From: Marinicella marina
Lineage (GTDB): Bacteria; Pseudomonadota; Gammaproteobacteria; Xanthomonadales; Marinicellaceae
Length of the DNA stretch: 64,000 nucleotides
NCBI RefSeq assembly: GCF_030065545.1
Contig: NZ_JASJNC010000003.1
Coordinates: 1 to 64,000 of the forward strand
Reading direction: 5' to 3'
Each line of letters starts with the position of its first letter. The first letter of the stretch is position 1. Shown piece by piece: positions 1,020 to 50,064 of this stretch. The notes beneath the pieces are model-generated. The model had not been told where the DNA came from and did not search any database. It saw only the letters and a program-made list of their open reading frames with translations. The translations under genes were made by a program, and so were the position numbers.

Positions 1020-2441
1020 TTAAACCGTCGGCCGCTCAACCAATACCCCGTGAACATAGGCGGTTGAATTGATCGAGGCGTGTGACTTTTCAAGTGGCTG
1101 CAACTTAATCAGCAGCGAGTCTGAGCGACCTCGGCTTTTGATAACTGATAGGCTGTAGTTAACGTCATCATCATCGCCGATGGGCTGTTCTAGGAAGTTG
1201 ATTTTTACCGCTTTGGCAGCTGAAATTTTCTGTACCCATGCCGATTGTTGGCTTTGTTTCACTGTTAAGGTCACTGTGGGGTATTTTGAAATCGCCACAG
1301 CGTACAGGTAACCAAAGGGGCCTGATTTTGAGAAGTCAATTTGTGGCTGGGGCGAGAATTTATAGCCTGAGACATCATCATCACCGTTACGAATGGCCGC
1401 ATTGATTGGCCCCACCCAATACCAGTATTGCAAAGAGGACATCAGGAAACTCACCGGCGTGAAATAAACCGTGGTCAGCCCTGAAAAGTCGAATTGCACC
1501 GTTACCTCATCAGAATCGGCAGGGAGCACCTGCTGGTCAAACAGTTCTTGTTCGTCCTTGGTTTTGATTGATAAGAACGACTCACTGGGCAGTTTTACCG
1601 ATGGCTGATTAGACTGGCTGATGATCAGCTCATCATGCTGACTGCGACTGACTTGCATGGAGACACTGAATGCAGTATTTCTGTCTTTCGCGTTCAAACC
1701 CGCAATGATTTTTTTTAATGGCGTTTTTACCGCATAGGCAGGTCGCAGTTTGCCGTCATTGGTCAGTAAGCCACCATTGGATTCATCGGGTCTTTGCACT
1801 GCCAACAGGGCGTGATGCAGGTAGGCATCGTTCATGGTCACGGCATTCAACAAGGACACGCCAGCGCCCAATGCATTCAAATAATCAACCAACACCGGTA
1901 CCACTGATTGGCCCGCCTCGGGAGTTTGGTTTAACAACTGTCGGGGTTGTGGGTTGTGCTGTAAATCAGTCAGTGAGACCGGCGGTGATGCCCAGGTTTG
2001 GGTGATTTTATTGATGATGGTATCAATGGCTTGTTGGTTGTTGGAGATTGATGGTAACTGCCCAAAAGCATCCTTCCAGGCCTGCAGTAAAGCGGTTTGT
2101 TGCAGCAGGATTTTACTTCTGTCTTGATTCAGTTTGTTTTGATCGGCTTGTGACAAAGAATAACTCACTTTACTTAAGGCAGCAATGAACAGGTTGGTGA
2201 ATGGTTGGCCTTGTTGAATGGGTGAGGTGTTGGCTTTCAAACTGGCGTCAATCCAGTCATAGGTTTTGGCATTAAATACCAGTGACTGCGGATCCTGCCA
2301 GTAATAAGGAAAATTACCCAATGGTCCTACGGTGAATGGTTGCATGCCGGTGGTGGCTGATACTGCAGTTCTGGCTTGTTTGGATAAAACTTGGTTGGCA
2401 GCAGTTGTGAGGTTCAATGCAATGGATTTGGCTTGATTCAT
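1020..2441 (-). CDS. Hypothetical protein, tandem paralog 1
   Basis: A 473-residue protein clearly homologous along its full length to the next gene upstream (2565-3980). Shared landmarks in order are: N-PYYW-DP with FNAKTYDWI near residue 50; TNL/I-F/Y-I-ALSKVSY; VTMNDAYL near residue 205; VSRS; QYWYWVGPI; DDDVSGYKFSPQPQIDFSK-GPFGYL; and a C-terminal beta-rich segment. No signal peptide or membrane helix is evident. It is likely all-beta at the C terminus. I do not recognise the family. The same-strand tandem arrangement points to a local duplication followed by marked divergence. Confidence 0.75.
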   Translation of the reverse strand: MNQAKSIALNLTTAANQVLSKQARTAVSATTGMQPFTVGPLGNFPYYWQDPQSLVFNAKTYDWIDASLKANTSPIQQGQPFTNLFIAALSKVSYSLSQADQNKLNQDRSKILLQQTALLQAWKDAFGQLPSISNNQQAIDTIINKITQTWASPPVSLTDLQHNPQPRQLLNQTPEAGQSVVPVLVDYLNALGAGVSLLNAVTMNDAYLHHALLAVQRPDESNGGLLTNDGKLRPAYAVKTPLKKIIAGLNAKDRNTAFSVSMQVSRSQHDELIISQSNQPSVKLPSESFLSIKTKDEQELFDQQVLPADSDEVTVQFDFSGLTTVYFTPVSFLMSSLQYWYWVGPINAAIRNGDDDVSGYKFSPQPQIDFSKSGPFGYLYAVAISKYPTVTLTVKQSQQSAWVQKISAAKAVKINFLEQPIGDDDDVNYSLSVIKSRGRSDSLLIKLQPLEKSHASINSTAYVHGVLVERPTV

Positions 2442-22092: not shown

Positions 22093-22590
22093 TTACAAAG
22101 TGGCCAATGCCGCAGCATAATCAGGTTCATTAACCACATCATCAACCAGCTCGCTGTAAACCACCTCGCCATTCTCATTGATTACCAGCGTGGCACGCGC
22201 ATACAAACCATTGAGTGGTCCATCAGTCATCTTCACACCATAATTTTTGGCCAATGACTGATGCCTAAAATCTGAGGTAGTCACAGCATTTTCGATGCCC
22301 TCAGCAGCACAAAAACGATTCAAGGCAAACGGCAAGTCCATTGAAGCGAATAACAGCACCACATCATCAAGTGCTGCGGCTTTTTGGCTGAAAGTTTTTA
22401 ACTGCAGCGCACAAACAGCGGTATCCACACTGGGGAAAATATTAAAAATGACTTTCTTGTTCTTAAATTCAGCCAAAGTGGCATCACTCAAGTCTGCTTT
22501 GATCAATTGAAAATCAGGTGCTTGTGAGCCGACCTTCGGAAAGTCACCTTCGGTGTTGATTGGGTTGCCTTTGAATTTTGTTTGAGCCAT
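22093..22590 (-). CDS. tpx: Thiol peroxidase
   Basis: An atypical 2-Cys peroxiredoxin that reduces hydroperoxides using thioredoxin. The 165 residues match the family length. The peroxidatic Cys is in FPSVDTAVCALQLKTF (near residue 60) and the resolving Cys in LPFALNRFCAAEG (near residue 95). The N terminus TKFKGNPINTEGDFPKVG is also characteristic. It is probably cytosolic, with no signal peptide. It is transcribed away from the sRNA candidate at 22820-22990. Confidence 0.93.
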   Translation of the reverse strand: MAQTKFKGNPINTEGDFPKVGSQAPDFQLIKADLSDATLAEFKNKKVIFNIFPSVDTAVCALQLKTFSQKAAALDDVVLLFASMDLPFALNRFCAAEGIENAVTTSDFRHQSLAKNYGVKMTDGPLNGLYARATLVINENGEVVYSELVDDVVNEPDYAAALATL

Positions 22591-22819
22591 TGATGTATTC
22601 CTTAATTAAATCAAAGATTATAGCACCATCAACTGTAACTTAAATCTGGATTTGAACAGCTGTTACTTGAATTAACCATTGGCTACTGATTTGATCAAAA
22701 TGGACCGTGCTTCATACATTGGCATACTTTTCTCTCGTGTTTACCTGTTAAAAATGTCATTAGGCCGTATTTTGTTATTATGGGTCCTTAATTTGAAAAA
22801 AATATGGTGTGAAATCCAT

Positions 22820-22990
22820 ACAATAGGAACTGTTGGTAAGACACTCACACACACAAGGAACAGACAGGAGGTCGCGCTCTGAAAGGATTCAGGGTTTAGC
22901 ATCTAGGAAAGCAAGGATCGAAACGGGTGTCTTCATCAACAACAGGAATACTGCACAAGGATGTGATTTTACCCCAAGAAAACAGCCAGC
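22820..22990 (+). ncRNA. Candidate CsrA/RsmA-sequestering sRNA (CsrB/RsmY-like)
   Basis: The 420-bp gap between tpx and the phosphatase gene contains no convincing protein, but its plus strand carries eight GGA motifs between 22826 and 22961. Two sit exactly as AGGA tetraloops on perfect stems: CTGAA-AGGA-TTCAG (22879-22892, extendable to 7 bp) and CACA-AGGA-TGTG (22954-22965). The latter contains ACAAGGATGT, which matches the known CsrA consensus. Others (TAGGAAAGC, CAAGGATCG, ACAGGAATAC, CAAGGAACAG, ACAGGAGG) are in likely single-stranded stretches. A TACAAT -10-like element sits at 22820. Exact ends are uncertain and no strong intrinsic terminator is evident. The minus strand is gene-free. 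Confidence 0.6.
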
Positions 22991-23010
22991 ATAGTTGCCT
23001 AAAATCTACT

Positions 23011-23490
23011 TCATTTAAACATTTTCGGTTTTAAAAAACAGGCCATCGCACCACCACCGGCTTCGATGTCTTCAAAAGTGAGTTTTGCATAAGCGCAGGT
23101 TGGGAAATTAGCCAAATCAGCATCACTCAAGTGGTTGATCAGATTGGTGAATGCCGGGTTGTGTCCCACCAACAACAGCTCATCATGGGTCAACAGGGCC
23201 GTTGATAACCAGCTGATTAAATTCGACGCCGAAAATTCATACAAATCATCCACCACTTGCCAGTCAAATGCATCACCAGCCCAGTTTTCTGCAATGGTTG
23301 TTATGGTTTCTCGGGCTCTGGTGGCCGGGCTACAAAAGACTTTTGGCCACCGTTCAAAAACATCGTCCAATGCCTTGGCCATGATAACGGCATCTTTGCG
23401 CCCCCTGCTGTTCAATGGCCTGTGTTGGTCACTGAGTCTTGGATTATCCCAACTGGACTTGGCGTGTCTGATCAGGTGCAGTGTTTTCAT
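23011..23490 (-). CDS. SixA-like histidine phosphatase
   Basis: A 159-residue histidine-phosphatase-superfamily protein. The start chosen is ATG at 23490, which overlaps the Rieske gene's stop by 4 bp (ATGA); the frame is open 26 codons further but that extension is unconserved. The RHG-type catalytic motif is LIRHAKSSWDN (residues 5-15). VFCSPATRARETITTIAE near residue 58 and LLVGHNPAFTNLINHL near residue 110 supply the second catalytic His. SixA enzymes dephosphorylate phosphohistidine; the substrate here is inferred. Confidence 0.85.
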   Translation of the reverse strand: MKTLHLIRHAKSSWDNPRLSDQHRPLNSRGRKDAVIMAKALDDVFERWPKVFCSPATRARETITTIAENWAGDAFDWQVVDDLYEFSASNLISWLSTALLTHDELLLVGHNPAFTNLINHLSDADLANFPTCAYAKLTFEDIEAGGGAMACFLKPKMFK

Positions 23491-24654: not shown

Positions 24655-24745
24655 GTAGGGTGGGCTCTGCCCACCATTTAATGGCACTGCTTTAATTAAA
24701 CAAAAATCATAACTGGTTTTTTTTGGTGGGCGGAGCCCACCCTAC
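24655..24745. repeat. REP-like inverted pair
   Basis: GTAGGGTGGGCTCTGCCCACCA (22 bp, arm split 20+2) at 24655-24676 is repeated in inverted orientation at 24724-24745 with one mismatch, 47 bp apart. Each arm is itself palindromic (GTGGGC-TCT/TCC-GCCCAC). Such paired GGGTGGGC palindromes in intergenic regions are typical of REP/BIME elements mobilised by REP-associated tyrosine transposases. No such transposase is in the window. As RNA it would form a long hairpin between the Rieske gene's leader and the next small gene. Confidence 0.7.
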
Positions 24746-47265: not shown

Positions 47266-50064
47266 TTAACTCGCTAAAATTATTGTTCCATCAAATTTGT
47301 TACTAGAGGGATACTGCCATGAGCCGTTGTTAGCCTGTTCAGCTTTGATCTGCACACGCAGTTTAAATCTACCTAGACCTGGTGTTGGGTGGGTGCCCGA
47401 TAGAGTGAGAGCTGTCCCAATATCAATTCCAATTGGATACTCACTAACAGTTGTCCAGCTTCCATAGACGTTAGATCCTAAGTTAGACTCACGACTCATT
47501 TGAATCCTGACTCTTGCAGCATTCTGGTTGCTACCAAAGACCCCTACAGATACGGTGGCAGTTGCCCTACGTGACCTAGGTACTCCAGGATCTGAAGTGA
47601 TTACCTCATTTCCCACTTGGAACCAGTCAGTCTGATTACCATTAGGTACAGTTGTTGTTGCACCTTCAAAAGATACAGAGGTAGCACTACCCACAGCACC
47701 ATCAATATTTGATGCAGATACTTGTCCTCCAAAGAAGGCATTACCATCTGTGTCAATGTAGAACACAGCATTGTTATGGGACATGGTTCCTGTACCAGCC
47801 CACATGAGTACCTTGAAGTCTGTCTCACCACCAGGGAATACAGAACCACCAACACCTAAGTTATAGTCGTTCGTATCACTGGCTAAGACCAGTCGAGATC
47901 CAGTAGCATTGAAGTTTCCGTCACGGACTATAGGGTATCCATTACCATCAAGATCTGTGAAGGTGAATCTACCTGCCATACCATCAATAGCTGACAAGGT
48001 GTTTCGTACAAACAAGTCCCCATTAACAGTCACATCTGGTTCACCAGGTACATTACCTGTGTTCACAATAAAGGGAACAAAAGCATTCTCTGGGGAGTTC
48101 CAAGTGCCATTAACTAAGTTACCAGCATCAGGAGGTCTGACCACTGAAAAGTAATCAGCCATGACCATGAAGTCTGATCGACTACCTGCCTCTGGGTTGT
48201 TAGGGTCTTGTTGCATCCCTAAGCCTACTCCTGCAACTACAGGAACTCCACCATTGTATTGGTTGATCCTAACGTTCCATGTGGAGTACAGTAGGCCATT
48301 CTCAGTATCTACATAAGCCTCTAATGTCTCAGAGATAGCTGATATGTCATCACCTACAACTGCCTGAATGGTATCCTGTACGGTGGCACCTGCCAGACCT
48401 GTGGAGTTGTAGAGCTGTTGAAGGCTCTGCACAATCACACCTTGAGCAGTGATTGCTTGATCCTGAGTTTCCACCCATGCCCCTGTGATACCAGGGAACG
48501 TAACAAACTCAAGACCTGCAGGTATGCTGTTACTTGTCTGCCAATAAAACAGCTTATGTCCTAAATCAGACAGCTTCTTGAACCATGCAGATCCCTCTGG
48601 GAATCCCACGTTGTACCAAGGTTGGTCTTCAAACTCAGCAGCCGTTGGGTCTGGTGCTATCTGCCTGAAGAATATTGGCTGTGTGTTTAATTGTAGCTCT
48701 GTTAAAGACTGAGCCAGTCCGCTCTCCTCATCCACATAGACCTGCCATGTTTCTTCCATAGCTGCTACCATCTGTGTGGCATCACTGCCTTGAGCTGGAG
48801 AGAAAGCTGCGAACAAAGCTGTACGCATATCAGCATTAGCATTGATTGTGGATGCCTGAGCATTCACCGTTGTTGTAAGCCCTGCTAAGGATGCTGCCTG
48901 TGATCCAGGTTGCCAAGTGCTTGGGTTGTCAATACTACCACCCGCACCAACTAAGAATGATTCAATACCATTGATGTTGGCAGCATTAGCGTTAGCTGTT
49001 CCTCTGATTCCAAAGATGTAGTCAGAAGATTGAAACAAGCCTTCCCAATCATTGTTATCAAACCTAGCATTAATCTGAGTTGTTGCAATGGCAGTAGCTT
49101 CATTCTCATCCACATAAGTAGATTCAACGGTACCTATACGAGCACTTAAGTTCGCAACGTCACCTTGGAAGTCTACCTCAATCGTATCAACCCTAGAGGA
49201 CAATGCACTGTCTGCATCCACATAGGCTTGCTCCACAGTCAATATTAGCGCCTCGTTATCTGCAATCTCCGCTTGGAGCTGAGAGACGGAGGTAGCTGTT
49301 GCGGAGTCTAAGTCCGTTATGGCTTGACTGAGCTGTAAAGCATTCGCCTCAGCATCATCAAGACGTGTAGCAACCCCAGTGATCTGTGTGGCAATCGTTT
49401 GGAACTGTGAGGTCGTGGTGGTCTCTAAGTTGATTATCTGGGCATCAATGGCACCTAAGTTCACTCCAATGTCTGCAAGTTCAATAGTATGTGCATCTAC
49501 CACAGCATCTATCTGCTGAGTGATCTGCCAGTTGTTGTGGGTATTAATAGCATTCTGAATTGCATTCTCAGCATTAATGTCAGTCAATTCAATGAGTTGC
49601 ACTAAGTCTGCGAATAACTGAGTGTTCAGTAATTCAGTGATGATGCTATCAATCAGAGCAGGTAAGGTGTTATCTCCCTCTCCTGGGTCTCCCCCTGAAC
49701 CTGGAGGTGCATCTGGATCAGTACCAGCTGTTGCTGCATCCCAGATCTCCTGAATCAGATATAACAGTTGGGTGGTTACTAAGTTAAGAGGATCCTCTCC
49801 AAAAGAACCTGCATTACTAAACTCCACCCACTTCTGGTCTCTACGTGTGTACCTTCTGAGGTATATCTCATCACCAGCTACGGTGTTCGCAATTTGTACA
49901 GTAGAGGCTGAAGTCCATGTTATGTCCGACTCAGGACGATCTGTTCCATTAACAAATAAGAAGACATCTGACTTGAAAATGTAGGGGAAAGTTACAGTGT
50001 AATTCTCCCCTGGAGTACCAACCGTATAACTTACCAGTGAATAGTAAGATATGATTTGTGACAT
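47266..50064 (-). CDS. Tail fibre (T7 gp17-like N terminus)
   Basis: A 932-residue fibre. The first 150 residues match the T7 gp17 adaptor (SYTVGTPGENYTVTFPYIF, VFLFVNG, EIYLRRYTRRDQKWVEF, PLNLVTTQLLYLIQEIWDA) that docks on the tail. A long coiled-coil shaft follows, then (about 400-700) the region with TAWVETQDQAITAQGVIVQSL similar to phage host-specificity proteins (DUF1983), and a beta-type tip. It determines host binding. Confidence 0.85.
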   Translation of the reverse strand: MSQIISYYSLVSYTVGTPGENYTVTFPYIFKSDVFLFVNGTDRPESDITWTSASTVQIANTVAGDEIYLRRYTRRDQKWVEFSNAGSFGEDPLNLVTTQLLYLIQEIWDAATAGTDPDAPPGSGGDPGEGDNTLPALIDSIITELLNTQLFADLVQLIELTDINAENAIQNAINTHNNWQITQQIDAVVDAHTIELADIGVNLGAIDAQIINLETTTTSQFQTIATQITGVATRLDDAEANALQLSQAITDLDSATATSVSQLQAEIADNEALILTVEQAYVDADSALSSRVDTIEVDFQGDVANLSARIGTVESTYVDENEATAIATTQINARFDNNDWEGLFQSSDYIFGIRGTANANAANINGIESFLVGAGGSIDNPSTWQPGSQAASLAGLTTTVNAQASTINANADMRTALFAAFSPAQGSDATQMVAAMEETWQVYVDEESGLAQSLTELQLNTQPIFFRQIAPDPTAAEFEDQPWYNVGFPEGSAWFKKLSDLGHKLFYWQTSNSIPAGLEFVTFPGITGAWVETQDQAITAQGVIVQSLQQLYNSTGLAGATVQDTIQAVVGDDISAISETLEAYVDTENGLLYSTWNVRINQYNGGVPVVAGVGLGMQQDPNNPEAGSRSDFMVMADYFSVVRPPDAGNLVNGTWNSPENAFVPFIVNTGNVPGEPDVTVNGDLFVRNTLSAIDGMAGRFTFTDLDGNGYPIVRDGNFNATGSRLVLASDTNDYNLGVGGSVFPGGETDFKVLMWAGTGTMSHNNAVFYIDTDGNAFFGGQVSASNIDGAVGSATSVSFEGATTTVPNGNQTDWFQVGNEVITSDPGVPRSRRATATVSVGVFGSNQNAARVRIQMSRESNLGSNVYGSWTTVSEYPIGIDIGTALTLSGTHPTPGLGRFKLRVQIKAEQANNGSWQYPSSNKFDGTIILAS

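Follow-up and report, generated by a model that had tools for sequence, protein, structure and literature searches.

The intergenic gap under study, about 420 nt in length, lies in the window, by which the whole 64 kb stretch of Marinicella marina DNA analysed here is meant. A tpx-like gene at one end points away from the region and a histidine phosphatase gene at the other points toward it (Table 1). An earlier note on this DNA described the region as protein-free, which is a reasonable but not an absolute statement, as two TTG-started open reading frames overlap it. Coding by these small frames was rejected: their best tblastn matches against ten related loci reached E-values of 0.013 (67 aa) and 0.009 (53 aa), and the latter match falls over the hairpin segment shared between loci. 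Elsewhere in the window, at 24655-24745, a near-perfect inverted repeat (GTAGGGTGGGC...GCCCACCCTAC) was observed in one intergenic copy; its sequence has the appearance of a repeat or a mobile palindrome.

Table 1. Features of the tpx-phosphatase intergenic region and its surroundings (window coordinates)
Feature	Position	Strand	Remarks
Redoxin/AhpC-TSA family protein, tpx-like	22093..22590	-	neighbour, divergent from the putative sRNA; context only
TTG-started ORF, 67 aa	22679-22882		overlaps the region
GTCC element	22784..22787	+	5 nt 5' of the TTGAAA box; GTCY in 6/6 loci
TTGAAA, -35-like box	22793..22798	+	TTRAWA in 6/6 loci
TACAAT, -10-like box	22819..22824	+	TANAAT in 6/6 loci
GGA start positions	22826, 22857, 22867, 22885, 22906, 22915, 22945, 22959	+	last base 22961
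Putative sRNA, about 135 nt, seven GGA	22830..22965	+	presumed start from the -10 box, presumed end at the last hairpin
Predicted closing stem, 5' strand (UGUUGGUAAGACACUC)	22831..22846	+	from folding
TTG-started ORF, 53 aa	22833-22994		overlaps the region
Small predicted hairpin GAC-AGGAG-GUC	22863..22873	+	GGA in loop; from folding
Predicted hairpin with AGGA tetraloop	22877..22894	+	perfect core 22879-22892
Predicted closing stem, 3' strand (GGGUGUCUUCAUCAACA)	22925..22941	+	from folding
Terminal hairpin CACA-AGGA-UGUG	22954..22965	+	fits ACARGGAUGU, the CsrA SELEX core; in the window copy, pairing predicted at about 0.9
Histidine phosphatase family protein	23011..23490	-	neighbour, convergent with the putative sRNA; context; not adjoining the G007 copy

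The count of eight GGA motifs in 136 nt, taken from first to last base, was confirmed, and every one of them is an AGGA. Two form tetraloops on perfect stems, as had been claimed, with the sequences CTGAA-AGGA-TTCAG (22879-22892) and CACA-AGGA-TGTG (22954-22965). The consensus word assigned to the second hairpin is present as well: ACAAGGATGT is the core of the CsrA SELEX consensus RUACARGGAUGU, as given in the accessible part of its source (PMC7652899). The AGGA density of 8 in 136 nt is the highest of the 64 kb window on either strand, with at most five on the minus strand and fewer than six at other plus-strand places, and in 5000 dinucleotide shuffles of the region (171 nt) it was never reached (shuffle mean 1.9). 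Plain GGA is far less extreme, as eight were reached in 3.1% of dinucleotide shuffles and two minus-strand places in the window hold 8 and 9. Moreover, the site had been chosen by the earlier reader for its GGA words, which introduces a selection bias into all within-window statistics, and the relatives described below therefore weigh more. Folded as one piece, the 171 nt show nothing unusual (z -1.06). Since the first GGA sits directly 3' of the putative -10 box, a start near 22830 would leave seven GGA in the transcript.

The comparison set comprised the genome of origin (G000, 3.46 Mb) and 17 further genomes of the same genus. A blastn search of 251 nt against 60 relatives returned no match except the window itself. 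Synteny with tpx combined with covariance modelling led to five related loci in the 17 genomes, so that a recognisable copy is present in six of the 18, own genome included; none was detected in the other 12. A tpx match (E up to 1e-30) was found in 16 of the 18. Four of the five related loci agree with the window in orientation and in the side of tpx on which they lie, and the fifth, in G014, lies on the 3' side of tpx. The gap between tpx and the phosphatase gene was inspected at nine loci, the window's own among them. In G003 and G009 it contains GGA clusters together with the same last hairpin word, at three loci it is merely 72-113 nt long, and three longer gaps hold 0-3 GGA, including that of G004, where a reduced copy was later found. 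A search for the hairpin word led to a further tpx gene with this arrangement, in G007; there the phosphatase gene is not adjacent. In G003 one predicted gene stands between tpx and the copy.

A covariance model built from the window, G003, G009 and G007 (R1) and run on 34 genomes gave four weak matches beyond its training loci. Two of these, in G004 (E 0.025) and G014 (E 0.49), directly adjoin tpx; the other two were judged to be chance matches, being coding-like or free of a GGA cluster. A second model made from all six members (R2) yielded no further convincing copy in 35 genomes. Marginal model matches away from tpx, including L036 and L069, were set aside on the same grounds. Thus, GGA-bearing loci with the same terminal sequence occur at tpx in five relatives, which is the kind of conservation on which the earlier note had staked its proposal.

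All six loci share a promoter-like block of the form GTCY-N5-TTRAWA-N20-22-TANAAT-N7/8-GTTG, a pattern derived from these loci themselves. It was found in seven of 81 genomes, six times at the sRNA loci and once at a GGA-poor place in G027. Stripped of GTCY, the pattern was rejected as a marker, as its 11 places consist of the four training loci and seven sites with 0-1 RGGA in the next 200 nt. The spacer of 20-22 nt between the -35-like and -10-like boxes exceeds the usual sigma-70 spacing. A simple sigma-70 scan did not return the proposed block; the sole site it listed, at 22754-22781, compares with 1.7 expected by chance. At the other end of the putative gene, no intrinsic terminator (a hairpin followed by a T run) was found at 22580-23120, a feature that the earlier note had proposed to look for. 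In the G003 copy a run of seven T directly follows the terminal sequence.

The invariant columns are concentrated in the promoter and in the terminal part; the interiors are barely alignable, and mean column identity is 59% for four sequences and 51% for six. The GGA content is retained in most copies: strict transcripts of the six loci hold 7, 4, 6, 6, 2 and 5 GGA, i.e. 30 in total, and no TCC. The corresponding shuffle p-values are, in the same order, 0.037, 0.028, 0.004, 0.036, 0.49 and 0.23, and the copies of G004 (two GGA) and G014 thus show no excess over shuffles. When four loci are counted over a slightly longer stretch, which opens near the -10 box and closes a little beyond the last hairpin, they hold 25 GGA and none on the other strand; the shuffle mean is 13.8, and 25 was reached in 0 of 3000 summed shuffles. 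The GGA-poor G004 copy may be decaying or may have changed its function. In the G014 copy (L201, about 1375-1515, minus strand) approximately three repeated GGA modules can be seen by eye, a repetition that suggests growth by duplication.

Predicted folds of the RNA body vary between copies. In the window RNA the GGA words are unpaired with a mean probability of 0.78 compared to 0.44 overall, and three of them lie in hairpin loops of the minimum free energy fold. Predicted exposure is poor in G014 (0.14-0.45) and in G003, where three of five GGA fall below 0.5. The body fold z-scores are -3.7 for the window, -2.2 for G003, -2.8 for G009 and -0.1 for G007. When the body is folded without the last hairpin, the 5' end is predicted to pair with the part just before that hairpin in these same four loci, and the summed energy of this stem is significant (p 0.001). 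Taken singly, the stem gives p-values of 0.011 for the window, 0.076 for G003 (where the tested segments overlap), 0.013 for G009 and 0.35 for G007, so that neither G007 nor G003 is significant alone. The minimum free energy folds of G004 and G014 lack a closing stem and contain a local 5' hairpin instead, which is also predicted in G009.

All six loci close with [C/G]ACARGGAYGU[G/C], the outer pair being C-G in four and G-C in two, and five of them carry the exact SELEX core ACARGGAUGU, from which G004 deviates by one base. In the helix, 23 of 24 pair cells (six sequences, four pairs) are standard; the shuffle control of this pair count is weak (36/500), as expected with so few sequences and pairs. 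The probability of the terminal hairpin was read from its three outermost pairs, with the modelled transcript stopping either at the hairpin or 12 nt past it; in the window copy it is 0.87-0.92. Elsewhere it depends on the assumed 3' end, with 0.76-0.82 or 0 in G003, about 0.5 or 0.98 in G009 and about 0.1 or 0.7 in G014, or it is low, as in G004 (0.18-0.33) and G007 (0.07-0.14). Hence, of the conserved GGA-loop hairpins anticipated in the earlier note, every one of the six copies retains the terminal sequence, but not every one is predicted to form a stable terminal hairpin when folded at full length.

The proposal also required a CsrA gene, and the genome contains one copy of csrA (G000:C2:119373-119528; E 4.5e-26, over cut-off; Pfam CsrA 9.1e-27). 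A UvrY/GacA orthologue with receiver and LuxR-type domains is likewise present, with 52% identity to E. coli UvrY (E 2.1e-68; next best in the genome 32%). Its gene (L213, G000:C21:262242-262880) is not located beside uvrC, unlike in E. coli; the neighbouring products are presumably RpsP, RimM and TrmD, which they resemble. The binding site of this regulator, a palindrome with the consensus TGTAAG-N6-CTTACA (PMC4682653), did not rise above shuffles upstream of -45 at any of the six loci, where the best sites have 4-5 mismatches and are reached by 61-100% of shuffles. In G003 a UvrY-like word with two mismatches overlaps the -10 box, a score reached by 5 of 300 shuffles of another locus. As an observation apart from the six loci, GACAAGGATGTC occurs in G006 just 5' of an AAGGAG site and a short open reading frame (L241, C10, around 47275-47325, minus strand), and from its sequence this site looks like a CsrA-target leader.

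A search of the window with all 4227 Rfam families, CsrB (RF00018) and RsmY (RF00195) included, gave no match over the gathering threshold, and a permissive scan of 22500-23200 produced four chance-level matches, none to a Csr/Rsm family. The locus therefore appears to resemble CsrB and RsmY in kind, as had been proposed, but not as a member of an Rfam family. When applied to the own genome, the CsrB model returned two matches regarded as noise (E 1.5 and 2.3) and the RsmY model five, none over its 57-bit cut-off; in control searches the RsmY model had matches at E up to 10 in 13 of 14 genomes, again none over the cut-off. The best, sub-threshold RsmY-model match (L115, G000:C12:109412-109513, plus strand; 28.7 bits, E 6.1e-5) is intergenic; it holds three GGA and not a single TCC, and it includes a strong terminator hairpin. 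It was set aside as unlike the tpx-side locus and is possibly another small RNA. The second match (L116, 22.9 bits) was dismissed as a terminator without GGA.

What the computations establish is the excess of GGA and its bias to one strand, a promoter-like block and a terminal sequence common to the loci, their conserved position, and genes for both CsrA and UvrY. From these we infer transcription of the locus with the start and end given in Table 1, binding and sequestration of CsrA, and a regulator acting on the promoter. The locus would be a free-standing sRNA gene transcribed rightward from the block at 22784-22824, giving an RNA of roughly 135 nt with its 3' end near 22965 or slightly beyond. 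CsrA dimers would be bound by the GGA words of this RNA, some of which are exposed in hairpin loops, and would be kept off mRNA leaders, as RsmZ and CsrB do, whereby CsrA-controlled mRNAs would be relieved. We regard such a CsrA-sequestering sRNA, working like RsmZ, as the probable identity of the locus, with a confidence tempered by the terminal hairpin, which does not dominate the predicted fold of some copies. The other weak points of this assignment are the lack of a detected terminator, the patchy distribution and the GGA-poor G004 copy. Still, the sponge proposed in the earlier note is largely supported by the GGA words, the relatives and csrA, and it is the UvrY box, the terminator and the Rfam match that did not materialise.

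Three other explanations were weighed. That the promoter-like block and the terminal sequence are kept even in the two-GGA copy of G004 would suit a conserved small RNA acting by base pairing or otherwise, in which GGA is incidental or only modulatory. The nearly unalignable interior is unlike a base-pairing seed, however, GGA persists in four of the six copies and the GGA of the terminal sequence in all six, and we consider this explanation unlikely. The location of all six copies near tpx could instead mean that the region is a leader, an antisense RNA or the 3' end of tpx or of the phosphatase gene, and not an independent gene. This is very improbable in view of the G014 copy on the 3' side of tpx, the G007 copy without an adjacent phosphatase gene, the separate promoter-like block and the fact that the putative sRNA overlaps neither coding region in the window.

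The last alternative, a functionless purine-rich spacer that happens to adjoin a copy of a repeat-like CACARGGATGTG hairpin, draws on the distribution of that word. It occurs 29 times across the 18 same-genus genomes (0-5 per genome), and the 140 nt ending at it contain 7, 5, 4 and 4 RGGA at the four sRNA loci that carry it. Near the 25 other copies there are 1-4 RGGA, i.e. four at two copies, three at two and one or two at 21. The two copies with four (L134 in G005 and L176 in G010) equal those of G003 and G007, so that CACARGGATGTG alone is not diagnostic, and it was rejected as an unspecific family marker. In some order-level relatives, among them G036, G046 and G041, the word is very abundant, with 72 copies in G036 (44 forward, 28 reverse) compared to none for the reversed pattern. 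There it is often paired about 100 nt apart, and the few examples inspected sit in longer stems; by sequence, it has the look of a family of repeats, with a loop that fits the CsrA SELEX core. This abundance and the two RGGA-rich copies favour a spacer with a repeat. Against it, 23 of the 25 other copies hold only 1-3 RGGA, and the word is kept together with the promoter-like block, near tpx, in divergent genomes, which makes an origin of this kind unlikely.

The CsrA-sequestering sRNA is thus retained as the preferred assignment, and the locus seems to represent a new family within a known kind of RNA. A more specific version, which we consider possible but less likely than not, is a CsrA sponge specific to this lineage and not under the usual control through a UvrY box; the conserved GTCY-N5-TTRAWA block and the over-long spacer would then point to another activator. 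In this version the body turns over freely while the terminal CsrA-consensus sequence is fixed; the body ranges from two GGA in G004 to the apparent repeated GGA modules of G014. Because the interiors of Csr/Rsm sponge RNAs evolve fast, homology searches detect such RNAs only with difficulty. With six copies to compare within a single genus, it becomes possible to test directly how many GGA sites are needed in a sponge, as well as what controls a sponge where no UvrY box is visible. In the literature records available, Marinicella together with CsrA gave no result, and together with small RNA only microbial-community studies. A term search of the main text of a machine-learning prediction paper for the CsrA-sponge class did not return Marinicella (PMC5568370, accessible part).

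Compared to known systems, the putative RNA is similar in format to RsmZ of Pseudomonas fluorescens, which is described in the accessible part of PMC4005645 as a 127 nt RNA with eight GGA motifs, many in hairpin loops. Size, GGA number and the placement of GGA in loops are alike, whereas the Marinicella locus has its own promoter-like block and no Rfam match, intrinsic terminator or GacA/UvrY box was found for it. With 5.2 GGA per 100 nt and a mean GGA unpaired probability of 0.78, the window RNA also resembles E. coli CsrB (6.0 and 0.80) and CsrC (5.7 and 0.61). It is shorter than either (369 and 246 nt, respectively) and differs from both in that neither an Rfam match nor a UvrY palindrome was found. 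RsmU of Xanthomonas campestris is, according to the available portion of PMC7694677, a GGA-bearing RsmA-binding RNA without an Rfam homologue that arises by processing of the 3' UTR of a predicted comEA mRNA. The Marinicella locus is likewise GGA-bearing and outside Rfam, and its host belongs to the same NCBI order, Lysobacterales; unlike RsmU, as there described, it carries a separate promoter-like block and is not located downstream of a co-directional gene in the window. According to the same portion of that source, the Xanthomonas genomes sequenced contain no significant homologue of the known Csr/Rsm sponge sequences. If the assignment is correct, a sponge in Marinicella would help to fill this gap in the Lysobacterales, as far as that portion of the source defines it.
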